Source: Helicobacter burdigaliensis (GTDB taxonomy: Bacteria; Campylobacterota; Campylobacteria; Campylobacterales; Helicobacteraceae). Taken from it: a stretch of 64,000 nucleotides of DNA. The notes under the pieces were generated by a model. It did not search any database. It saw only the letters and a list, made by a program, of their open reading frames with translations, and was not told the DNA's origin. Positions within the stretch are counted from its first letter, which is position 1. Every line of letters starts with the position of its first letter. Shown one piece after another: positions 40,790-52,158 of the stretch. The translations under genes were made by a program, and so were the position numbers. The stretch covers positions 175,978 through 239,977 of the forward strand of contig NZ_QXJG01000001.1 of assembly GCF_003670295.1 (NCBI RefSeq), in the 5' to 3' direction.

Positions 40790-41353
40790 TTACCCCTCTA
40801 TCTCTCTTATCACTCTAGCAGGATTTCCACCTACGATTACATTGCTGGGCACATCTTTAGTTACCACCGCACCCGCTGCGATTATGGAGTTATCCCCTAT
40901 GCTGACACCAGGGCAAATCGTAGCGTTTATCCCTATCCACACGCGATTGCCGATATTTATAGGCTTACAAAAGGTAGTTGTGCGATTATAGGGATTGATG
41001 TCGTGATTGATCGTCGTTAGGCACACCTTAGGCGCGATATACACATCATCGCCTATATTTATCCCTCCCCTATCCATAAAGGTGCAAGAGGAGTTGATAA
41101 ACACATTTTTACCAAAGTTAATATTCCGCCCAAAGTCTGTATAAAAAGGCGGAAGTAGCCAAAGGCTAGAATCTACCTGCTTTCCCATAAGCTCGCTTAG
41201 GATTTCTCACACCTCTTTTTCATCATGATAGCCACTATTTAGTTTTGCCACGCAAATTTGTGCGTGTTTTATTAAAGGTAAAAGTTCATTTTCAAATTCT
41301 TCACCTTTATTTTCCACGCCAAGCCCTGCTAAATCCCGCTCCAATAAACTCAT
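40790..41353 (-). pseudogene. Sugar O-acetyltransferase, interrupted by an in-frame TGA
   Basis: The frame starting at ATG 41353 encodes a maltose/galactoside acetyltransferase N-terminus ('LLPLIKHAQICVAKLNSGYH') and then meets TGA at 41207-41209 (codon 49). It continues in the same frame with '[29 protein letters not shown]' and the left-handed beta-helix '[21 protein letters not shown]' ... '[34 protein letters not shown]'. Read through, it is 187 residues, the family length. CGA to TGA is the simplest origin. A 132-residue product from ATG 41188 keeps the hexapeptide domain and may still be made. Confidence 0.75.
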
Positions 41354-41363
41354 TTTTTACATT

Positions 41364-41768
41364 TTAATCCTTTATAATTTTTACCTTAAAATCATCTTTT
41401 TGTGTTTTTAAAACTTCTAAATCCCCTTGCACTTTTCCTAAAAATACCAAATCATCGCTCGCGTTTTGAAGTTCATAAAAGATTCCTATATTTCCCCATG
41501 GCACATAGCAGAATAAATCCCCAATTTGTGGCTTATAGGCACTGCTTCCTTTTACCTTTAGCGCTTTTGGCAAATGTGCGATTTTTTCTTTTCTTGCAAA
41601 ATCGCTAAATTCTAACTCCATTGGAAGAGAGTTATAAAACTCTCTTGAAGCTTCATTGTCTTCTAAATTTACAAGCAATTCTTGATTATCAAAAAGTAAT
41701 TTTATCCTCATCTCTTCTCCTAATAAAAAAGTAAAGCAACATAACAAAACACCAAAAATCTTCAACAT
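41364..41768 (-). CDS. Cyclophilin-like fold protein, copy 1
   Basis: 134 residues with a signal peptide (about 1-17). The body 'MRIKLLFDNQELLVNLEDNEASREFYNSLPMELEFSDFARKEKIAHLPKAL' and 'GDLFCYVPWGNIGIFY' is the cyclophilin-like domain family (PF18050 type) common near aldo/keto reductases. It overlaps the ABM gene by one base (TAATG). A close paralogue lies at 47915-48319. Enzyme activity is unknown. Confidence 0.8.
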   Translation of the reverse strand: MLKIFGVLLCCFTFLLGEEMRIKLLFDNQELLVNLEDNEASREFYNSLPMELEFSDFARKEKIAHLPKALKVKGSSAYKPQIGDLFCYVPWGNIGIFYELQNASDDLVFLGKVQGDLEVLKTQKDDFKVKIIKD

Positions 41769-42157
41769 TAAAACTTCTTATCTAAACACATATTAGGGCT
41801 TATTGCGTCCATTGGGATAAATTTTAAACTCTTTATCATATGCAGTGTGCCTTGTTTGTATTTTTGAAAATGCTTGCTTGCTATGTGTTTTTTATAGCTT
41901 TCTTCATCTTTGTAAGATTCTATAATGCTAAATTTACAAGGATTATCCTTATGGGCGAGTGCATACAGCACCAAAACACCTTCTTCTTCCCTTACGCTTA
42001 TTTCGCTTTCTTCTTTTAAAATCTTTTTATATTCTTCTAAATACTTGCAGTCAATCTCAATTTCAGAAATCTTAACATTCATAAAACCTTGTATAAATTC
42101 TTGCGCACTCACTCCTAAAACCCCTAAAAATAAAATAGCTAGAATTTTTTTCATCAT
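41768..42157 (-). CDS. Secreted ABM-family monooxygenase-like protein
   Basis: 129 residues. Signal peptide 1-18, then an antibiotic biosynthesis monooxygenase (YgiN-like ferredoxin fold) pattern: 'YLEEYKKILKEESEISVREEEGVLVLYALAHKDNPCKFSIIESYKDEESYKKHIASKHFQKY'. Members oxidise quinols or take part in stress from reactive compounds. Start overlaps the aldo/keto reductase stop (ATGA), so it is one operon with it. Confidence 0.8.
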   Translation of the reverse strand: MMKKILAILFLGVLGVSAQEFIQGFMNVKISEIEIDCKYLEEYKKILKEESEISVREEEGVLVLYALAHKDNPCKFSIIESYKDEESYKKHIASKHFQKYKQGTLHMIKSLKFIPMDAISPNMCLDKKF

Positions 42158-43284
42158 AGCCCCACACTTCTTGCTGCATCAGAATTTGGCGGGTATCGCT
42201 CACCAAAGACAGGCATAGCTTTTAGTGCTTTATCAATCGCTTCTAACTCATCACGCTCAAAGCCAATTTCTAATGCACCTAGATTCTCTTCTAAATGTGC
42301 TATTTTTGTCGTCTCTGGAATTGGCATAATAAAAGGCTTTTGTGCGAGTAGCCAAGCAAGTGAAATTTGTGCGGTGGTGGCGCTCTTGCCATTTATAATT
42401 TTGCTTTTTGCAATTTCTCTCACATAGTTTAGAATTTTTTGATTTTCTCTCAAAGCGTCCTTTTGAAAGCGTGGAAAAGCTGCTCTCATATCAAGCGTTT
42501 TGTGAAAAGTGGTGTTTTCATCCATAAGTCCACCTAAAAATCCTCGCTCTAGTGGAGAATAGGCAGTAAAGCCGATGCCAAGTTTCTCGCAAGTAGCTAA
42601 GTTTTTGTTATCTTCAACCTCTCTAAACATCATAGAATAATGATTTTGCACCGAAGTTACAGGATAAATTTTATGTGCTCTTTCTATGGTTTTAGCACTT
42701 GGCTCACTTAGTCCATAGTAGCGGATTTTCCCCATTTTTACTAGCTCACTCATAGTGTTCGCTACTTCTTCTATGGGTGTATCAGGATCTACTCTATGTT
42801 GCGTATAAAGATCAATAAAATCAGTATTTAAGCATTTTAAGCTTCCATCAACCGCCCTTAAAATTGCTTTTTTACTAGAATCTTGGTGTTGTTTAGAAAA
42901 TGGATAGTAAAGTCCAAATTTCGTGCCAATAATCACTTTATCGCGGTAAGGTTTTAACGCTTTGCCAAGCAAAATTTCATTAGTATGTGGTCCATAAATT
43001 TCAGCTGTGTCAAAATAAGTTACTCCAAGCTCTATGGCTTTATGAATGAGCTTTATCATTTCTTTTTCATCGTGAGCGGGTCCATGCCCATGACTCATAC
43101 CCATACAGCCTAAGCCCAAAGCACTTACCTTTAAGTCCTTACCTAAGATTCTGCTAGGAAGCGTTTTTGCCTCATTTTCTTTTACTACTCTATCATGCTT
43201 ACTTTCTTTTGCAAACAATGCCCCACTGCTAAGTGCGATCGCCCCTACCACAGAGGCTTTTAAAAACTCTCTTCTTGAATCCAT
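42154..43284 (-). CDS. Aldo/keto reductase with twin-arginine signal
   Basis: 376 residues. The N-terminus 'MDSRREFLKASVVGAIALSSGALFA' is a Tat signal. Catalytic tetrad region: Asp in 'YFDTAEIYGPHTNE', Tyr in 'EIYG', Lys in 'VIIGTKFG', His in 'YTQHRVDPDTP'. NADPH-binding tail 'IMPIPETTKIAHLEENLGALEI'. Likely reduces reactive carbonyls in the periplasm. First gene of the operon behind a MerR-type promoter. Confidence 0.88.
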   Translation of the reverse strand: MDSRREFLKASVVGAIALSSGALFAKESKHDRVVKENEAKTLPSRILGKDLKVSALGLGCMGMSHGHGPAHDEKEMIKLIHKAIELGVTYFDTAEIYGPHTNEILLGKALKPYRDKVIIGTKFGLYYPFSKQHQDSSKKAILRAVDGSLKCLNTDFIDLYTQHRVDPDTPIEEVANTMSELVKMGKIRYYGLSEPSAKTIERAHKIYPVTSVQNHYSMMFREVEDNKNLATCEKLGIGFTAYSPLERGFLGGLMDENTTFHKTLDMRAAFPRFQKDALRENQKILNYVREIAKSKIINGKSATTAQISLAWLLAQKPFIMPIPETTKIAHLEENLGALEIGFERDELEAIDKALKAMPVFGERYPPNSDAARSVGL

Positions 43285-43309: not shown

Positions 43310-43340
43310 ATTATAAAGCATTAGAGTAGCTATCAGTCAA
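43310..43340 (-). promoter_or_regulatory. MerR-type promoter of the aldo/keto reductase operon
   Basis: On the minus strand: -35 TTGACT (43340-43335), a 19-bp spacer, -10 TATAAT (43315-43310). The long spacer is the hallmark of MerR-activated promoters. Inside it lies ATAGCTACTCTAA, matching the dyad TTAGAG-N3-CTCTAA seen in the cupin promoter at 49718-49748. Confidence 0.75.
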
Positions 43341-43416
43341 GAGCAAAATGAAAAAATTTAATAAAAATTTTAGATTCTAATTATTTTCAGATTCTAAAAA
43401 CAAAAAATCATAAAAG

Positions 43417-46152
43417 CTAACATCTAGCATAAGTCAAGTGAGATTTAATGTTGTTTTTAAACAAATAAAAATCCCTATTCAAGCCCTTTATTTTTAAAGA
43501 TTTTAATATTTTATTTTCAGTTTCTGCAGACCAATATATCTTTAATTCTTTTTTAGCTCTGGTAATTGCTGTATAAAAAATATTATGTGTAATTTGTTCT
43601 TCAATTTCATTAGCTACAATAATAGAAACTTTATCATATTCTAAGCCTTGTGCTTTATGTATAGAAATAGCGTATGCTACTTGGAAAGGAACAATATTGT
43701 TATTATCATCTTCTTCATCTGAATTTAATCTAGCAACACTAAATTTAATTTCAGTACTCTTATCATCTTTGGCTATTACTTTAAAATTGTTATTTATACT
43801 TTGTATTATCTTGTCAATCTTAATAGTGAAATTTATAGTTTTTTCATCCTCTTCGATATTAGTGATAACTCCTTTAAGATTATTATGAAATTCTTCTCCA
43901 AACCTTGATGAATTTTCGTTAAACAAAATTGGATCATCAACCTTATAGGATAATCCATTAAAATAAAATGATTTATGAGGATTATTTTCTTGTAAGAATT
44001 TATTTATATTATTTACTCCATATATGCCACCATAATTCAAACATAAAATAATTTCATCATTTACACTTCGTGAAAAATTAAAATTTTGAATATTTTCAGA
44101 ACTATTATTTTTTTCAATAGCCTCAAGCATACTTTCATCAAGTATTCTAACTTTTTCCCATAGTAATTGCAATTTCTCACTTTTTGTTCTATAAATATGT
44201 TTTAACTCCAATTGAATATCTGAAAAAAAATTTTGAGCAAATAAAAACCAATTTCCAAACCTGATAGATTCAATTTGATATACATCACCTACACAAATTA
44301 AAATTTCACACTGTAACTTTATATCATCTAAAACACTAAAAATATCTTTATTACTAATAGTGCTGCACTCATCGATAAATACAATATCAAATTTTTTCGA
44401 AATATTATTTTTATTTGCTATATATGAAGCAACAGTATAAAAAGATGAATTTTGAATATCAAGTCTTTGTCTTAAATTATTAACAGCCGTATTTGTATTG
44501 GCTAAATATAATTTATTCTTATCATGGAAAAAACTAGATATATGCTCTATTAATGTTGTTTTTCCAGTTCCAGCTGCTCCATATATTAATGCTAATTTCG
44601 AGTTACAAAATAAATTACTTAGATAATTTTTCTTTTCTTCACAATCTAATTTATTATTTTTTTTCAACCATTCGTTTATATTTTCTTTGTAATTATCAAG
44701 ACCACTTTTTTTAAAGTATTTTAATAAATGAATTATTTTGATTATAGTATCTTGATATTCATTTATAAATAAATATTTATCATGCAACACTTTTATTGAT
44801 CTTTTTTTCTTCTGTTTATAATATAATGCTCCATTATATTTTTTTATCAGCACTTGAATATTATCTTCTTTAAAATCTTCCAAGTCAGTATATAAAAGAC
44901 CATTTATTTCTGAGTTATTTTGAATTTTTCTAGCTAATAGTTCATGCTCTCTACCATTTGGACTAATGCATTCAAATAAAACATTTAATTTTGGAATATG
45001 CCCTGCTGGACTAGAGCAAAATGGCATGTCATCAAATGGAATACTTTCATATTTTAAAAATAAATTTGATAGATTTGGATTATGTTGATAGCTATTTTTC
45101 TTTTTAGGGATTTGTTTTTTGATAATTTGATTATTCATTGTATATAATATATAACTAAGAATATTTGCCCCAGATTTATTTTGTAAAATTATCTCTCTTG
45201 ATATATCCAAGCAATCAAATAAATGCTTCATTTTATCATCTTTGCTAAAATTATTTTTTATTTTGATGTATTCTTTATTTTTTAATTTTATAATATCAAA
45301 CAAATTAAGCTCTTCCCTTGTGAGAAACTGCATAAAATCTTCATAATTACGATTCCTCACAAATTGTTTATATTGCTTTTTGAATATTAAACAAAAATTA
45401 GCAAACTCGCAAGGACGAATATCTATATTCCACCGAGTAATTAAAATAATAGGCATTTGCAAATTTAGCAGTTTTATATTTGTGTAATACAAAGTTAATT
45501 TTGTAGAATAATTGCTTGGAATGTAATATTTTGAAAAAGCAATTAATTTATCGAATTTACTTACATTATCCCTTGCAATAGTAAAAGTTATTTCATAATA
45601 TATCTCTTCATTAATTATAAATGGTTTGACTTTTTGAATATAAAATTTATCTGTTTTGGTATCACTAAATACACTTGTTTGTTTAATTTTATCAACAACG
45701 CACTCATAGTATTGAAAACTTAATGTATCAAGATTTATTGGAAAGTCTTGCAAATTATTTAATATTTGAATATCTAAAAATTTTTTACAAAAATTCCTAG
45801 TTTGAAATAAGTAGAATAAATATTTAAGCATTAATCTTTCAGCAATTTCTTCATTAGGTGTATAATGAGATACCGAAATTTGAAGTAAATGATGAAAATT
45901 TTTTATATCTTTATATTTTCTTTTATCTCCAATATATTTTAAACTTGATTGTAAGTTTTCATAAATATTATCTAGTCGCTGATTTGTATCAGTATTATAA
46001 ACATATAAAGCTATATGTTCTAATAAATTTCTTAACTCATTTAAAATATTCTGAGATAAAAAACCTCTATCTTCTTTATTCCTATCAATATTTTTATTGA
46101 TGTTGCAATCAATATCTAAAATTTGTTTCAATGCCCTATTTTGTGGAAACAT
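43417..46152 (-). CDS. Large superfamily 1 helicase (UvrD/RecD-like)
   Basis: 911 residues. Walker A 'LIYGAAGTGKTTLIEHI' at about 527, Walker B 'IVFIDECSTISNKD' at about 589, 'CVGDVYQIES' (motif III region) and C-terminal 'VAYAISIHKAQGLEYDKVSIIVAN' plus 'ITHNIFYTAITRAKKELKIYWS' (motifs V-VI, UvrD_C_2). The first 500 residues match nothing I can name. It lies alone between the MerR remnant and the aldo/keto reductase, with more Ile/Asn/Lys than its neighbours, so it may be an acquired gene. A defence role is possible but unproven. Confidence 0.8.
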   Translation of the reverse strand: MFPQNRALKQILDIDCNINKNIDRNKEDRGFLSQNILNELRNLLEHIALYVYNTDTNQRLDNIYENLQSSLKYIGDKRKYKDIKNFHHLLQISVSHYTPNEEIAERLMLKYLFYLFQTRNFCKKFLDIQILNNLQDFPINLDTLSFQYYECVVDKIKQTSVFSDTKTDKFYIQKVKPFIINEEIYYEITFTIARDNVSKFDKLIAFSKYYIPSNYSTKLTLYYTNIKLLNLQMPIILITRWNIDIRPCEFANFCLIFKKQYKQFVRNRNYEDFMQFLTREELNLFDIIKLKNKEYIKIKNNFSKDDKMKHLFDCLDISREIILQNKSGANILSYILYTMNNQIIKKQIPKKKNSYQHNPNLSNLFLKYESIPFDDMPFCSSPAGHIPKLNVLFECISPNGREHELLARKIQNNSEINGLLYTDLEDFKEDNIQVLIKKYNGALYYKQKKKRSIKVLHDKYLFINEYQDTIIKIIHLLKYFKKSGLDNYKENINEWLKKNNKLDCEEKKNYLSNLFCNSKLALIYGAAGTGKTTLIEHISSFFHDKNKLYLANTNTAVNNLRQRLDIQNSSFYTVASYIANKNNISKKFDIVFIDECSTISNKDIFSVLDDIKLQCEILICVGDVYQIESIRFGNWFLFAQNFFSDIQLELKHIYRTKSEKLQLLWEKVRILDESMLEAIEKNNSSENIQNFNFSRSVNDEIILCLNYGGIYGVNNINKFLQENNPHKSFYFNGLSYKVDDPILFNENSSRFGEEFHNNLKGVITNIEEDEKTINFTIKIDKIIQSINNNFKVIAKDDKSTEIKFSVARLNSDEEDDNNNIVPFQVAYAISIHKAQGLEYDKVSIIVANEIEEQITHNIFYTAITRAKKELKIYWSAETENKILKSLKIKGLNRDFYLFKNNIKSHLTYARC

Positions 46153-46193
46153 TATTTCTCTAATCCTATAGTTTTATTTTGGTTTAGATTATA

Positions 46194-46618
46194 TCAAATT
46201 TCCACGCGTTTTTTGCGTTTTACATAGTCTTTACTTAAAAGGTTTAACTCATCTTTGCTTTCTTTTATTATTTTTTCATAATAATCCACTTTAAAATCAA
46301 ATTTTTCTAAGATGGTTTTTAGTTTTTGCATATCTTTTAGTGTTTTTTCTCTTGAACTTAAAATAATCTCTAGCCTTTCTTTTGCAGTACTTTCGCCTTT
46401 AGCACAAAGAGCAATATAATCTTTTAATCCTTAATGCTCACACCAATTTGGCGGTAACAATCCACCCAAAGCACCCATTGCAAATCTTTTTTACTAAAAT
46501 ATCTTACCCCATTTTCATCTTTCTCTACATAAGGAAACACACCCTTATCCGCCCAAAACATAAGTGTCCTACTAGGGACACCTGTTTTTCTTTCTACTTC
46601 TATGATTGTATAAACCAT
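46194..46618 (-). pseudogene. MerR family regulator, frameshifted
   Basis: The open part (46424-46618, 64 residues) is a MerR HTH: 'TIIEVERKTGVPSRTLMFWADKGVFP', 'ENGVRYFSKKDLQWVLWVDCYRQIGVSIKD'. It hits TAA at 46424. In another frame the sequence continues 'DYIALCAKGESTAKERLEIILSSREKTL' and a coiled coil to a TGA at 46194, which is exactly the missing dimerisation part. Removing an 8-base insertion (GGATTAAA, a near-duplicate of its neighbour) restores 'GVSIKDYIALC'. The gene is therefore probably inactive, or its sequence has a local error. Confidence 0.8.
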
Positions 46619-46638
46619 TTTAATCCTTTATAAAAGTA

Positions 46639-47522
46639 TCAAAAATCTTTATCTAAAACATATTTTTTATCTATCGGAAATGATTTTTTTGGTTTCTTAT
46701 TTTCTTCTTTTTTACTTTGTATATAATATACATCTTTTGCATCTGAAAGAATATATAAATCTTTTACTTGCAAACCCTCTTCATTTTCAGTAAAGCTGAT
46801 ATTATTATCTAATAATTTATTTTTTACAATTTTGCTTTTGCTTAGAGTCATTTCTGCCTTAAAATTACCTATTTTTAAATAAGAAGTAATATTTTCATTT
46901 AAAAATACAATAGATAAAAATAAGACAATAGTGTTAGCCAAAGCAAAAAATTTAAAACTTTTAAAGTCTTTAAAACATAATTGAAGGCTAAAAAATATAA
47001 AAATAATTAAACAACCAAAGCCCAGATAAAAATAATTAATTTCTTGGGTTTTAATGATAACAAAAAACCAGTAATAGCAATAGCTACATATATTATCAAT
47101 ATCAGAATTGTTTGTGTTGTAAAAATTCCAAATTTATCTAATGAAACTCTGTCTTTTCTTCCAAAAAAATATAATAGAACGTTTGCAACTATAAACACAA
47201 TAACAATAGATATTAATAATAATATACTGGGTTTCTGTAATGTGATAAAAGTAACGATGGTTGAAGCAATATAAATTATCAAAGGAATTGTTATTGGCAT
47301 TTTAAAATATTGTTTATATAATTCTCTTGAAAAAGAAAATATTCCCATATAGAAAAAACTAAAAATTCCTCCAAATAAAATCCCTGTAATTGCCAAAGCA
47401 ATTGCTTTTTGACTATCTACAAAAGGAATAGTTCTTGTTTGTAAAGAATGCTGAATAAGTATAAAAATGACTATAGAAATTCCTGCAAAACTCGCAACTT
47501 GAAACAAATCTTTTGAAGTTTG
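46639..47522 (-). pseudogene. Membrane protein gene broken by a frameshift
   Basis: One frame (47007-47525, starting at TTG) gives a protein with four to five membrane helices, ending abruptly after 'SLKPKKLIIFIWALVV'. A second frame continues from the T6 run at about 47063-47068 with 'FVIIKTQEINYFYLGFG' and another helix, then 'NIVLFLSIVFLN'-like and a charged tail ending 'DKKYVLDKDF' at 46639. One extra T would join them into about 290 residues. Neither piece has a good start. It may also have been joined to the 106-residue gene upstream, which ends in the same frame. Family unknown. Confidence 0.5.
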
Positions 47523-47591
47523 CAAAATCGATTTTGAAAGTTTGATAAAATCTTTTTTATCTTTTCTTGTCTCATAGCGTTCTTCATATTT

Positions 47592-47912
47592 TTAAAATTT
47601 AACTTTAGATTTAAACTCAAGCTCTTTTAATTCTGGTTTAGAAATATTTTTCATATACAAATCAAAATAAAAATAAATTTCATCTTCCAAATCATCAAAC
47701 TCTTGAGGATTGTTTTTAAATTTTTGATATTCCAAATTTTTAAAAAACAAAATTTCTTTTTCTACTAAAGTTTGCAACTTTAGACTTATTTCTTTTATGT
47801 TTTCACTACTTGCAATATTTTGCTTGCTTCTTTCTTCTTTAAGCTGTTTTATCAATTCTTGACATTCTTGTAATCTTTTTTCTTTTATATTTAATAAAAT
47901 TTTAAATTCCAT
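47592..47912 (-). CDS. Small coiled-coil protein, unknown
   Basis: 106 residues, soluble, two long helices ('KRLQECQELIKQLKEERSKQ' and 'LKLQTLVEKEILFFKNLEYQKFKNN'). It starts 2 bases after the cyclophilin-like gene with a GGAG site. After its TAA the same frame stays open into the membrane protein, so it might be the N-terminus of a once longer protein. Confidence 0.55.
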   Translation of the reverse strand: MEFKILLNIKEKRLQECQELIKQLKEERSKQNIASSENIKEISLKLQTLVEKEILFFKNLEYQKFKNNPQEFDDLEDEIYFYFDLYMKNISKPELKELEFKSKVKF

Positions 47913-47914
47913 TT

Positions 47915-48319
47915 TTACTCCTTTATAATTTTCATCTTAAAATCGCTTTTTTGTGCCTTTAGAGCTTCCAAATTCCCTTGCACTTTTCCCAAATACACCA
48001 AATCATCGCTCGCATTTTGAAGTGCATAGAAAATTCCAATATTTCCCCACGGCACATAGTAGAATAAATCCCCAATTTGAGGTTTATACGCACTGCTTCC
48101 TTTTACCTTTAGTGCTTTGGGTAAGTGTGCAATCTTTTCCTTTTTCATAAAATCGCTAAAATCTAGCTCCATTGGAAGCATATTATAAAACCCTCTTGAA
48201 GCTTCATTGTCTTCTAAATTTACAAGCAATTCCTTGTTATTAAAAAATAATTTTATTCGCATTTGCTCTCCTAGTAAAAAAGTAAAACTTATTAAACACA
48301 AAATCAATATTTTTATCAT
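47915..48319 (-). CDS. Cyclophilin-like fold protein, copy 2
   Basis: 134 residues, about 80 percent identical by eye to the copy at 41364-41768 ('IAHLPKALKVKGSSAYKPQ' is shared exactly). Signal peptide at the N-terminus. Follows the CMD gene by 3 bases. The duplication spans the operon boundary: each MerR-type promoter drives one copy. Confidence 0.8.
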   Translation of the reverse strand: MIKILILCLISFTFLLGEQMRIKLFFNNKELLVNLEDNEASRGFYNMLPMELDFSDFMKKEKIAHLPKALKVKGSSAYKPQIGDLFYYVPWGNIGIFYALQNASDDLVYLGKVQGNLEALKAQKSDFKMKIIKE

Positions 48320-48322
48320 AAA

Positions 48323-49189
48323 TTAAGCTTTCAAAGTCAAGCTATCTAACGCAGCTATCGCATTTAATGCCCTTGGATAGCCAATATAAGGCGTAAGTGC
48401 TGCAATGATATTTAGCAAATCTTCTCTGTTTTGTCCCATATTAAGATTACCTTGTATATGGGCTTTTACTTGGGTTTCTGCCCCACCAAGCGAGATAAGA
48501 TATACAAGCGTTAAAAGTTCTCTTGTTTTTAGATCAAGCCCTGTGCGTGTGTAGTAGTCTCCAAAACAATTTGCGCTTAAAAAATCATTCATAAAAGCTT
48601 TATCTTTTGGGCTAGATTCTATCATTTTGGTGATATTTGCCTCTCCAAAAATAGTATTTTGAGCAATTCTTCCTTTTTCTTTGCGATTATCCTGTGTGGT
48701 TGTGCTTTGCAGCTCTAGTGGCATTTCAATCCCTAATTTTTCAAATACTTCATTGCAAAGACTTAAAAAATCACGCACCTTAATAAAGCCCACATAAGGA
48801 GTAGCTTGATAGATCATTTCTTTGATAACAACGGGGTTTATATCGTGATTTATCGCTCCTTTAAGCAAGGTTTTAAACTCCATTTTTCCACCCGCTGCCA
48901 AAGTAGAAGCAAGTGTGATTAAAAAATACTTTTCTTTAGGCAAATTTGCCTTTGCAAAGCTTTCTCCAAAAGTAAAATTAATGTGATTAGTAAAAAATTC
49001 CTTATCACTTGTAAAAAGAGGATCCTTTTTTGTTCTGCCCAAAAGCTCTTCATAAATTTCTTTTGCCTTTTGTTTTAACTGCATAGTTTTTTCCTTAATT
49101 TTTAAAGTTTGTGAAAAAAGGGCTTGAGATGCCACCCCTAAAAGCATAAAAGTTTTAACGCTTAGATTTAAAAAACTTCTGCGTTTCAT
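48323..49189 (-). CDS. Carboxymuconolactone decarboxylase family protein, exported
   Basis: 288 residues. Tat-like signal 'MKRRSFLNLSVKTFMLLGVASQALF'. Two CMD domains: about 60-145 ('FAKANLPKEKYFLITLASTLAAGGKMEFKTLLKGAINHDI') and about 190-285 ('LDLKTRELLTLVYLISLGGAETQVKAHIQGNLNMGQNREDLLNIIAALTPYIGYPRAL'). CMD proteins include AhpD-like peroxide enzymes, but the CxxC pair is not obvious here. Follows the cupin gene by 12 bases. Confidence 0.85.
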   Translation of the reverse strand: MKRRSFLNLSVKTFMLLGVASQALFSQTLKIKEKTMQLKQKAKEIYEELLGRTKKDPLFTSDKEFFTNHINFTFGESFAKANLPKEKYFLITLASTLAAGGKMEFKTLLKGAINHDINPVVIKEMIYQATPYVGFIKVRDFLSLCNEVFEKLGIEMPLELQSTTTQDNRKEKGRIAQNTIFGEANITKMIESSPKDKAFMNDFLSANCFGDYYTRTGLDLKTRELLTLVYLISLGGAETQVKAHIQGNLNMGQNREDLLNIIAALTPYIGYPRALNAIAALDSLTLKA

Positions 49190-49201
49190 TGCAAAATTCC
49201 T

Positions 49202-49687
49202 TTAATTTCTTGCTTCTTTTAAAGCTTTTTCATACTCTTCATCGCTTACAAGTTCAAGCCACTCTACATTTTTACCATTGATTTCACTTGTTAAGGCTAT
49301 GTGTGCTCCAGCGCTTGTATCACTTGCTCCGTGAAAATGCTTCACTCCCACAGGACAGCTTATCACATCGCCTTTTTTAGCAATCACCGCTTTTTGTCCT
49401 TCTGCTTTTGTGATAATTTCGCCTTCTGTTACGATTAGCGTTTGTCCTTTAGGGTGAGTATGCCATGCACTTCTAGTACCTTTGCTAAATTCCACTAATC
49501 CTCCGCTAAAATCTCTCCACTCATTTGCCTTAAACATCATGCTTACCTTTACTTCCCCGCTAAATATTTTAACATCTCCTTTAAAGCTCCCATGAGTTCC
49601 TTTCTTTTCTACTATTTGCATATTTTCTCCTTCACTAGCAAGGGCAAAAACCCCGCTAAGCATTAATAGACATAAAATCTTTTTCAT
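49202..49687 (-). CDS. Secreted cupin protein
   Basis: 161 residues. Signal peptide 1-17. Cupin motif 1 'GTRSAWHTHPKGQTLIVTEGEIITKAEG' and motif 2 'GDVISCPVGVKHFHGASDTSAGAHIAL', with His and Glu metal ligands. Such cupins accompany CMD proteins and aldo/keto reductases in stress operons. First gene behind a MerR-type promoter. Confidence 0.88.
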   Translation of the reverse strand: MKKILCLLMLSGVFALASEGENMQIVEKKGTHGSFKGDVKIFSGEVKVSMMFKANEWRDFSGGLVEFSKGTRSAWHTHPKGQTLIVTEGEIITKAEGQKAVIAKKGDVISCPVGVKHFHGASDTSAGAHIALTSEINGKNVEWLELVSDEEYEKALKEARN

Positions 49688-49717
49688 CTCTTTCCTTTAT
49701 TTTGAAAATTTTTTACA

Positions 49718-49748
49718 ATTATAAAAGATGAGAGTAGCTCTAAGTCAA
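49718..49748 (-). promoter_or_regulatory. MerR-type promoter of the cupin operon
   Basis: On the minus strand: -35 TTGACT (49748-49743), 19-bp spacer, -10 TATAAT (49723-49718). The spacer holds TTAGAG... written as TAGAGCTACTCTCA, with half sites AGAG and CTCT. It is near-identical to the promoter at 43310-43340, from CTCTTGACT through CTACTCT. Confidence 0.75.
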
Positions 49749-49825: not shown

Positions 49826-50842
49826 TTAATACCTATTCTTCAAAGCCCATTTGACTAATAAAACTAATACCGGCACTTCCACAAGTGGTCCAATAATCGC
49901 TCCAAAACTCTGTGGTGAAGCAATCCCAAAACTTGCAATGCAAATTGCAATAGCAAGCTCAAAATTATTACCACTTGCACTAAAGGAAATCGAGCAAGTT
50001 TTTTTATAATCTATCTTGCTCTTACACGAAATAAACCAAGAGATGAAAAACATACACACAAAATACAAAATAAGTGGCAACGCAATCCTTAGTGCATCTA
50101 ATGGCAAGCTAAATATCATATCTGATTTATAAGAACACATCATAAAAATAGTAAAAAGCAAAGTAATAAGCGTAAGCGGACTAATAAAGGTCAAGAATCT
50201 TTCTTCATACCACATATTGCCTTTTGCCTTTATCAAAATAACTCGGCTTAAAAACCCCAAAATGAAAGGGATTCCAAGATAGATAAATACATTTTTGCTA
50301 ATTGAAGCAATGCTAATATCTACACTAGAATTTTCTAACTTTACTCCTAGAATGGAAGGCAAAAACTCAAGATAAAAATAAGCCAAGATTCCAAAAAATA
50401 GAATCTGAAATACGCTATTAAAAGCCACAAGCGCACTTGTATATTCTCTATTTGCCCCTGCTAAATCACTCCATACAACGACCATAGCCACACATCTAGC
50501 AAGTCCGATGATAATCACTCCTTGCATATATTCTGGGCTATCTTTTAAAAATATATATGCTAGTGCAAACATCAAACTTGGCCCAACGATCCAGTTTAAA
50601 AAAAGTGAAAAAGCTAGAATCTTTTTATCATCAAAGACTTGCAACATTTTTGCATACTCGACTTTTGCCAAAGGTGGATACATCATTAAAATAAGACAAA
50701 AGACTAGAAGCATATTAAGCGAGTTGTATTCAAAAATAGCCCAAAAATTATTTACATTTGGCACAAAATACCCAAAGACTAATCCAGCAAAGATTACCAA
50801 AAATATCCAAAGACTAAGAAATCTATCTACTACTCCTAACAT
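49826..50842 (-). CDS. acr3: Arsenite efflux permease Acr3
   Basis: 338 residues from ATG 50842 (GGAG upstream; a GTG six codons earlier is less likely). Ten membrane helices, with 'GLARCVAMVVVWSDLAGANREYTSALVAFNSVFQI' (the Cys essential for transport) and 'ISFSASGNNFELAIAICIASFGIASPQSFGAIIGPLVEVPVL'. Exports arsenite. Overlaps arsR by about 20 bases, so it is co-translated with its regulator. Confidence 0.92.
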   Translation of the reverse strand: MLGVVDRFLSLWIFLVIFAGLVFGYFVPNVNNFWAIFEYNSLNMLLVFCLILMMYPPLAKVEYAKMLQVFDDKKILAFSLFLNWIVGPSLMFALAYIFLKDSPEYMQGVIIIGLARCVAMVVVWSDLAGANREYTSALVAFNSVFQILFFGILAYFYLEFLPSILGVKLENSSVDISIASISKNVFIYLGIPFILGFLSRVILIKAKGNMWYEERFLTFISPLTLITLLFTIFMMCSYKSDMIFSLPLDALRIALPLILYFVCMFFISWFISCKSKIDYKKTCSISFSASGNNFELAIAICIASFGIASPQSFGAIIGPLVEVPVLVLLVKWALKNRY

Positions 50843-51158
50843 TCTCTCTCCAATTCGCACGAGATTTTACCAAAGGTGGAAGAGATAAATTAAGCTCTTT
50901 TATAGCCTCTAAACACTGAAGATGAAAGAGGGATAAATCCTCCTTTATCCTATAATATGCCCAAGCGCCTTTGCGTCTCACTTCTAAAAATCCAGAATCT
51001 TTTAATATTTTTAGGTGGCGTGAGAGGCGTGATTGAATCATATTTAAAGAGCTTTGTAAATCACACACACAAAGTTCGCCATTTTTGGTTAAAAAGGCTA
51101 GTATTAGCACCCTACTTTCATCATTTAATGCACCAATGATATTTAAAAATTTATCCAT
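50823..51158 (-). CDS. arsR: ArsR family arsenic-responsive repressor
   Basis: 111 residues, winged helix. 'LTKNGELCVCDLQSSLNMIQSRLSRHLKILKDSGFLEVRRKGAWAYYRI' contains the arsenite-binding CVCDL motif of ArsR. Likely represses the arsP-arsR-acr3 operon until arsenite binds. Confidence 0.93.
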   Translation of the reverse strand: MDKFLNIIGALNDESRVLILAFLTKNGELCVCDLQSSLNMIQSRLSRHLKILKDSGFLEVRRKGAWAYYRIKEDLSLFHLQCLEAIKELNLSLPPLVKSRANWRENVRSSR

Positions 51159-51168
51159 TTAAATTCCT

Positions 51169-52158
51169 TTATAAAAAATAAGTAAGACTTCCAAAGCCAA
51201 TTGCAATCAGTAGGATAAGTCCCACAAAAAGTGCTAGAAAGTTTGTCCTAAATATACCCTTTAACAAAATGAGTTCAGGGAGAGAACACCCAGCACCCGC
51301 GATTAAAAAGCTAAAAATCACACCCTCATTCACACCCACTTCAAGTAATGCTAAGCCAATAGGGATAATCGCCTCCACTCTAATATAGAGCAAGATTCCA
51401 ATCAGTGCTGCTAGAATAACACTTAAAATGCCAAAATCACTTAGATAATCTTGTAAAAAATCTTGTGGCACAAATCCATGTATAAAAGCCCCAATCCCCA
51501 TACCTATGGCAATATATGGAATAAGCTTTTTGTAATCTTTAAAAGATTGTAATAAAATTTCTTTAAAACTTAGTTTATTTTTAAGTGTGCTATCACAGCA
51601 ACTTGTGCTTTTACTTTTGCTCTCACCACAGCAACTTTGAGGTTTTTTGATACTAAAAGAAGTGATTTTAGCAGGATTTTTAGCTTGTTTCTTCACGCTA
51701 AAAGATAAAGAGTTTGTGCTTTTAAAATCCTCTTTGAAAAATTTTTGTGTATCTAGCCTTTGGATTAAAATAGCAAAAATAAAGATTGCAACAAATAAAA
51801 AAGCCACATATAAAAAAGTAAGCTTAAAAGAAAATGCTAAAAAGAGCATCACAACGATAATAGGATTAATTAAAGGCGAAGTAAATAAATAGGCAATACA
51901 CACGCCAAAGGCTACATTTGCCTGCAATAATGCACGAAGCAAAGGAATGGTAGAGCAAGAACAAAAGGGAGTAAGAGCACCAAGCAATATAGCTTTAAGA
52001 TAGCTAGAATACGAATCTTTGCTCAGATGTTTTTCAAAAGCATTTTTATATTTGTGATTGATAAAGCTAACAATAGCAGAGATAAAAATAAAAAGCAAAG
52101 AAAGCTCAATAAAATAAATGCAAAATAGTTTAAGAGATTCTAATAATTTTACTTCCAC
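51169..52158 (-). CDS. arsP: ArsP-type organoarsenical permease
   Basis: 329 residues starting at GTG 52158 (AAGGA 7 nt upstream). 'LGALTPFCSCSTIPLLRALLQANVAFGVCIAYLFTSPLINP' with the CSC pair is the ArsP/DUF318 signature. A Cys-rich cytoplasmic loop (about 178-192: SCCGESKSKSTSCCDS) separates the two halves. In Campylobacter ArsP exports trivalent organoarsenicals such as reduced roxarsone. First gene of the operon. Confidence 0.88.
   Translation of the reverse strand: MEVKLLESLKLFCIYFIELSLLFIFISAIVSFINHKYKNAFEKHLSKDSYSSYLKAILLGALTPFCSCSTIPLLRALLQANVAFGVCIAYLFTSPLINPIIVVMLFLAFSFKLTFLYVAFLFVAIFIFAILIQRLDTQKFFKEDFKSTNSLSFSVKKQAKNPAKITSFSIKKPQSCCGESKSKSTSCCDSTLKNKLSFKEILLQSFKDYKKLIPYIAIGMGIGAFIHGFVPQDFLQDYLSDFGILSVILAALIGILLYIRVEAIIPIGLALLEVGVNEGVIFSFLIAGAGCSLPELILLKGIFRTNFLALFVGLILLIAIGFGSLTYFL

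Follow-up and report, generated by a model that had tools for sequence, protein, structure and literature searches.

An intact MerR paralogue, rather than a frameshifted one, as the probable regulator of two matched promoters in Helicobacter burdigaliensis

Background

MerR-family proteins are dimers that bind a dyad in an over-long promoter spacer, and that activate by distorting the DNA (PMC9909328). The system described here lies in a 64,000-nucleotide stretch of Helicobacter burdigaliensis DNA, called the window below. Two operons in the window begin with matched promoters of the MerR type, and a MerR gene at the end of one of them is broken by a frameshift. The source genome is 1.8 Mb long, comes in 62 contigs and is placed by GTDB in the family containing Helicobacter. 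Probably it is not the broken gene but an intact paralogue elsewhere in the genome that runs these operons, as part of a three-operon regulon for carbonyl or quinone detoxification.

The closest described systems form the NmlR/AdhR group, with NmlR of H. influenzae and AdhR of B. subtilis. This group is the best family match (NCBIfam NF041849) of both MerR genes discussed here, and in the PDB the broken gene's orthologue from H. pullorum matches the NmlR structures 5D8C, 5D90 and 5E01. The promoters have the same layout, a dyad in a 19-bp spacer, and the putative target set likewise contains dehydrogenases and aldo/keto reductases. Cys54 is present in the intact paralogue and in the N-terminal half of the broken protein, and it aligns with a Cys of the H. 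influenzae protein (5D90). A conserved Cys near position 54 is presumably the sensor thiol in the NmlR/AdhR subgroup.

There are also differences. The intact paralogue scores 90.6 bits against an equivalog cut-off of 175 for NF041849, so that NmlR is its best match and it still falls below the cut-off; the two halves of the broken protein score 35.6 and 34.2 bits against the same cut-off. The putative targets here include cupin, carboxymuconolactone decarboxylase (CMD), antibiotic biosynthesis monooxygenase-like (ABM) and cyclophilin-like proteins. Residue 17 of H. influenzae NmlR is Tyr as aligned, where the Helicobacteraceae proteins have His, Arg or Thr.

Two other bodies of work are related. 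In C. jejuni, the regulator RrpA and the quinone reductase MdaB belong to a redox-stress cluster (PMC8765430). The intact paralogue has similar neighbours, with a gene passing the RrpA cut-off, an aldo/keto reductase (AKR) gene and an NAD(P)H-oxidoreductase-like gene all within 4 kb. RrpA itself is different, being a MarR-type protein with its own inverted repeat. The other is a study of the correlation between MerR DNA-binding domains and operators (PMC5045206), which in the parts drawn on here has helix residues that co-vary with operator bases, and sites tied to promoters with 19-20-bp spacers. The subfamilies named in those parts are metal-responsive (CueR, CadR-PbrR and MerR), unlike the NmlR-like proteins of the Helicobacteraceae considered here.

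Results

Both promoters are on the minus strand and consist of TTGACT and TATAAT separated by 19 bp. One, at 43340..43310 (TTGACTGATAGCTACTCTAATGCTTTATAAT), lies about 26 bp 5' of the ATG of an AKR gene. The other, at 49748..49718 (TTGACTTAGAGCTACTCTCATCTTTTATAAT), lies about 31 bp 5' of the ATG of a cupin gene. The window should contain 0.03 exact copies of TTGACT-N19-TATAAT by chance, and none of 100 shuffles contained two. In the whole genome, these two promoters are the only exact copies. Both promoters are real, and the claim of the original prediction that the two operons begin in this way stands.

The same element, allowing up to 2 mismatches, occurs in 17 of 59 related genomes, while a reversed control pattern gives few matches. 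The cupin-operon promoter is identical to a site in H. valdiviensis (C56:13807-13837). Within the window, matches with 2 mismatches are at chance level, and therefore only exact or conserved sites are used. A one-mismatch copy (TTGACT-N19-TATGAT) at 43407-43437 on the minus strand, some 100 bp 5' of the AKR promoter, lacks the dyad described below as class A and is probably there by chance.

A shared TTAGAG-N3-CTCTAA dyad had been proposed for both promoters. A related element is indeed found inside both spacers, but it is imperfect in each, reading TTAGAG-TAG-CTATCA at one promoter and TGAGAG-TAG-CTCTAA at the other. Taken alone, the dyad has 10 matches in the window where 5.2 are expected, which is barely over chance and not clearly significant. 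It carries weight only because it is placed within the 19-bp spacer and is conserved in relatives. A dyad operator inside a promoter spacer of 19-20 bp is what characterizes MerR-family activation, and both promoters, with their conserved dyads and 19-bp spacers, bear out the geometry that was suggested.

The genome holds three MerR-type genes, two NmlR-like ones and HspR. The broken gene is thus the only MerR-type gene nearby as far as the window goes, as originally stated, but not in the genome. A search for an intact MerR elsewhere does find one, starting at G000:C11:14283 on the same contig, about 205 kb away. It encodes an NmlR/AdhR-like protein of 134 aa with recognition helix SSHTIR, and its MerR_1 domain scores above the Pfam cut-off. 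The RrpA-like gene in its neighbourhood (L222:7446-7784) scores above the NCBIfam cut-off for that redox regulator and is less than 1 kb away.

Which regulator belongs to which promoter was surveyed in 121 Helicobacteraceae genomes, one per species; those named here are H. valdiviensis (G012), H. pullorum (G002) and H. trogontum (G102). The NmlR-like MerR proteins split at residue 17, in the recognition helix, which is either His (x-HT-[LI]-R) or Arg/Thr (S-R-[TK], S-T-[KR]). Operators come in two classes. Class A has the core TAGAG-N3-CTCTA and was defined as TTGACTTAGAG-N3-CTCTMAT..TATAAT. Class B has the core ACAC-N3-GTGT and was defined as TTGACARACAC-N3-GTGTCAGG..TATAAT. Both window promoters are of class A, although the one of the AKR operon has one degenerate half.

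Class A sites occur in 25 of 28 genomes with a His-type MerR versus 6 of 93 without (Fisher 4e-17), and class B sites in 43 of 44 genomes with an Arg/Thr-type MerR versus 5 of 77 without (Fisher 6e-26). The cross pairs of type and class show no association in the 121 genomes (p 1.0 and 0.83), and the reversed-pattern control has no matches among the matches listed. Among the 62 genomes with at least one intact MerR, of whichever type, p is 6e-11 for His with A and 4e-13 for Arg/Thr with B; since the species are related, all these p values imply more independent events than there are. Genomes with both types have both site classes in 9 of 10 cases, and the exception is a genome that is 61% complete. 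Where there are only Arg/Thr-type genes, class A sites are found in 3 of 34 genomes.

The two types are not two clades. On the MerR tree the type has to change 3 times, and supported branches force at least 2 of these changes. An Arg-type clade is the sister group of the His-type genes from this genome, H. valdiviensis and H. trogontum, three genomes that carry class A sites only. In H. trogontum the His-type gene is the sole NmlR-like MerR detected, and a class A site there precedes a hydrolase-cupin-cyclophilin-acyltransferase operon like that of the window. One further genome (G003) has a class A site 5' of a His-type MerR gene, followed by oxidoreductase, cupin and CMD genes. Sites of the ACAC..TGT type accompany the intact orthologues closest to the broken gene, which are those of H. 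pullorum and Campylobacter sp. TTU_617; H. pullorum additionally has class A sites and a gene of the His type.

The genome of the window fits this pattern, in that it has an intact His-type gene and no class B sites were found in it. The same is true of H. valdiviensis, the other genome with the broken gene. A third class A site (G000:C11:26666-26696) lies 5' of a gene for an Ahr-like zinc alcohol dehydrogenase, and is retained at the same dehydrogenase gene in H. valdiviensis and in one other genome (G009). By position, the predicted targets of class A sites are thus the AKR, cupin/CMD and dehydrogenase genes.

The broken gene spans 46194-46618 on the minus strand, with its two halves in different frames. 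The N-terminal DNA-binding half (46424..46618; 64 aa) scores above the Pfam cut-off for MerR_1 and ends after residue 64 at a TAA at 46424-46426. The C-terminal half (46194..46424; 76 aa) has no internal stop in its own frame, which is open over 46424..46197. The frame for the dimerization helix expected after the DNA-binding domain is intact in the paralogue and is cut off here by the frameshift. The helix of the broken gene is of the Arg type (PSRTLM), with a Met in place of an Arg kept by all other tabulated homologues. A Cys in the C-terminal half was considered as sensor and dropped; it is Cys54, in the N-terminal half, that aligns with a Cys of the H. influenzae protein.

The break had been described as an 8-base insertion after the DNA-binding half. 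The position and the change of frame are right, the insertion is not. At the break, close relatives with an intact gene have SI(K/E)D-[ILV]-K-x-YI, and positions 62-64 of the NmlR profile are covered by neither half, therefore sequence is missing and not added. As aligned with intact relatives, the frame shifts by a net -1. What looks like a short duplication is, by the same alignment, the pattern made by the codons of the conserved stretch KDxKDY, which is present in H. valdiviensis as well.

Among the homologues compared, only the H. valdiviensis copy is broken at this place. It has equal length across the break, with one substitution different there, and its C-terminal half is decayed. In the window, the ratio of nonsynonymous to synonymous differences (pN/pS) of the C-terminal half is 0.24 against the closest intact orthologue, from Campylobacter sp. 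TTU_617; an intact-to-intact pair gives 0.30. A stop-free half with a ratio like that of an intact pair points to a recent break in the lineage, or to an error. Descent of the break from a common ancestor with H. valdiviensis was considered: the equal length would favour it, and the clean downstream frame in the window would favour a recent or separate event. Broken or short Arg-type NmlR-like copies are also seen in four other Helicobacteraceae genomes (G060, G070, G093 and G096), where class B sites persist, in contrast to the genome of the window.

Genomic context

All genes of the two operons are on the minus strand. The AKR operon starts with the AKR gene (42154..43284), followed by genes for an ABM-domain protein (41768..42157), a cyclophilin-like protein (copy A, 41364..41768) and a hexapeptide acyltransferase (40790..41353). 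The last has an in-frame stop at 41207-41209, and the open reading frame listed at 40790-41188 is only the distal part of this interrupted gene. In H. valdiviensis the acyltransferase gene is intact, with its own class A promoter.

The cupin operon consists of genes for the cupin (49202..49687), a CMD-family protein (48323..49189) and a second cyclophilin-like protein (copy B, 47915..48319), then the remnants of a membrane-protein gene (46639..47912) with a nonsense change and a 1-base deletion, and lastly the broken MerR gene. In H. valdiviensis the membrane-protein gene is one uninterrupted frame of 424 codons. Against that species, synonymous difference (pS) in parts of it is only 0.04 to 0.17, where neighbouring genes have about 0.5, which suggests a recently exchanged block. 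The two cyclophilin-like paralogues, one per operon, are 81% identical; the H. valdiviensis operon has one.

In H. valdiviensis the genes form one run, in the order hydrolase, cupin, CMD, AKR, ABM, cyclophilin, membrane protein and MerR, with three sites of the same kind. Unlike in this run, the AKR part in the window is separate and has a promoter to itself. A helicase-like gene of 911 aa (43417-46152, minus strand), lying in the interval from the broken MerR gene to the AKR promoter, matches the PADLOC candidate defence family PDC-S53 nearly over its full length with 1150 bits. It has no match in H. valdiviensis, and one close relative among same-genus genomes (G003). Just 5' of the cupin operon, at 49826-52158, an ArsR-like regulator gene (50823-51158) is flanked by two permease-like genes. 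These resemble ACR3 and ArsP; all three genes were named by eye, from the sequence alone.

Discussion

The promoters match the intact His-type MerR, and so the system probably still works. The regulon would consist of the AKR operon, the cupin-CMD operon and the Ahr-like zinc alcohol dehydrogenase gene. A dimer of the His-type protein would occupy the dyad within the over-long spacer, keeping the promoter poorly active. An electrophile would then react with the protein, and the resulting distortion of the DNA would line up the -35 and -10 elements for activation. Aldehyde and ketone reductases and dehydrogenases as targets would fit carbonyl or quinone stress. We infer the binding of the paralogue to these sites, activation by it and the identity of the inducer from the sequences. 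The Arg-type gene at the end of the cupin operon would be a decaying paralogue, with its upstream neighbour gene decaying too.

Some findings weigh against control by the paralogue. There is no class A site just 5' of the intact gene, and it is the broken gene that sits inside a class A operon, both here and in H. valdiviensis. The survey statistics are inflated by relatedness, as noted. Also, in 6 genomes with class A sites no intact His-type gene was detected, and one of them is the genome that keeps the dehydrogenase site (G009). It can be that in those genomes sites outlive or do without a regulator, or that the search missed the gene.

The original prediction allowed for a regulon left silent or constitutive by the loss of its regulator, which presumes that the frameshifted gene once controlled both promoters. 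MerR genes do often adjoin their own targets, and in H. valdiviensis, where the gene is also inside the cupin operon, three class A sites flank that operon. This remains quite unlikely however. The class of site that accompanies intact Arg/Thr-type genes is B, which is absent from the genome, and genomes whose only such genes are of the Arg/Thr type rarely have class A sites. In both genomes with the broken gene the class A sites are still there, as is an intact His-type gene. H. trogontum, in which no Arg-type gene was detected, has a comparable operon and site. An error of assembly or sequencing, with two intact MerR proteins in reality, is an unlikely source of the frameshift too, even if 76 open codons with a pN/pS that looks selected would agree with this. 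The H. valdiviensis copy comes from an independent assembly and has the same net -1 length at the break. The gene just 5' has its own, independent nonsense change and deletion, the acyltransferase gene has a nonsense codon, and the recognition helix lacks the Arg that the other tabulated homologues keep.

Programmed -1 frameshifting could in principle express the broken gene. The same net -1 is seen in both species, the H. valdiviensis gene has an in-frame T TTA AAG, a canonical slippery heptamer, and the downstream frame in the window is intact. For a 76-codon frame to stay open under neutral decay since the split, P is about 0.02-0.04 at 0.3-0.5 substitutions per site. The window however has a stop codon in place of the slippery heptamer, in H. 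valdiviensis it is the downstream frame that has decayed, and none of the other homologues compared is interrupted here. A recent deletion accounts for the window equally well, and programmed frameshifting, being very improbable, was dropped as the leading explanation. Phase-variable switching by slippage at the short duplication, as once suggested, has next to nothing going for it: there is a visual repeat, which is the KDxKDY coding pattern also present in H. valdiviensis, and no insertion relative to homologues.

A wider proposition, which could go either way, is that residue 17 (His versus Arg/Thr) alone sets the operator class across the Helicobacteraceae. It would have changed more than once, and would let regulons pass between paralogues, with the loser decaying inside the winner's operon as in the window. 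One genome (G028) has a class A site about 255 bp 5' of an intact Arg-type gene, and therefore His-type regulators may have had Arg-type genes among their targets.

A limited literature search found no publication on this regulon. The system is ordinary in kind, and the correspondence between helix and operator is the useful part. When a regulator is broken beside the genes that it seems to control, the regulon is not necessarily dead, as here the operator class points to another, intact regulator. The correspondence of His versus Arg/Thr to operator class offers a rule, open to direct testing, by which NmlR-like regulators can be assigned to promoters in Helicobacter.

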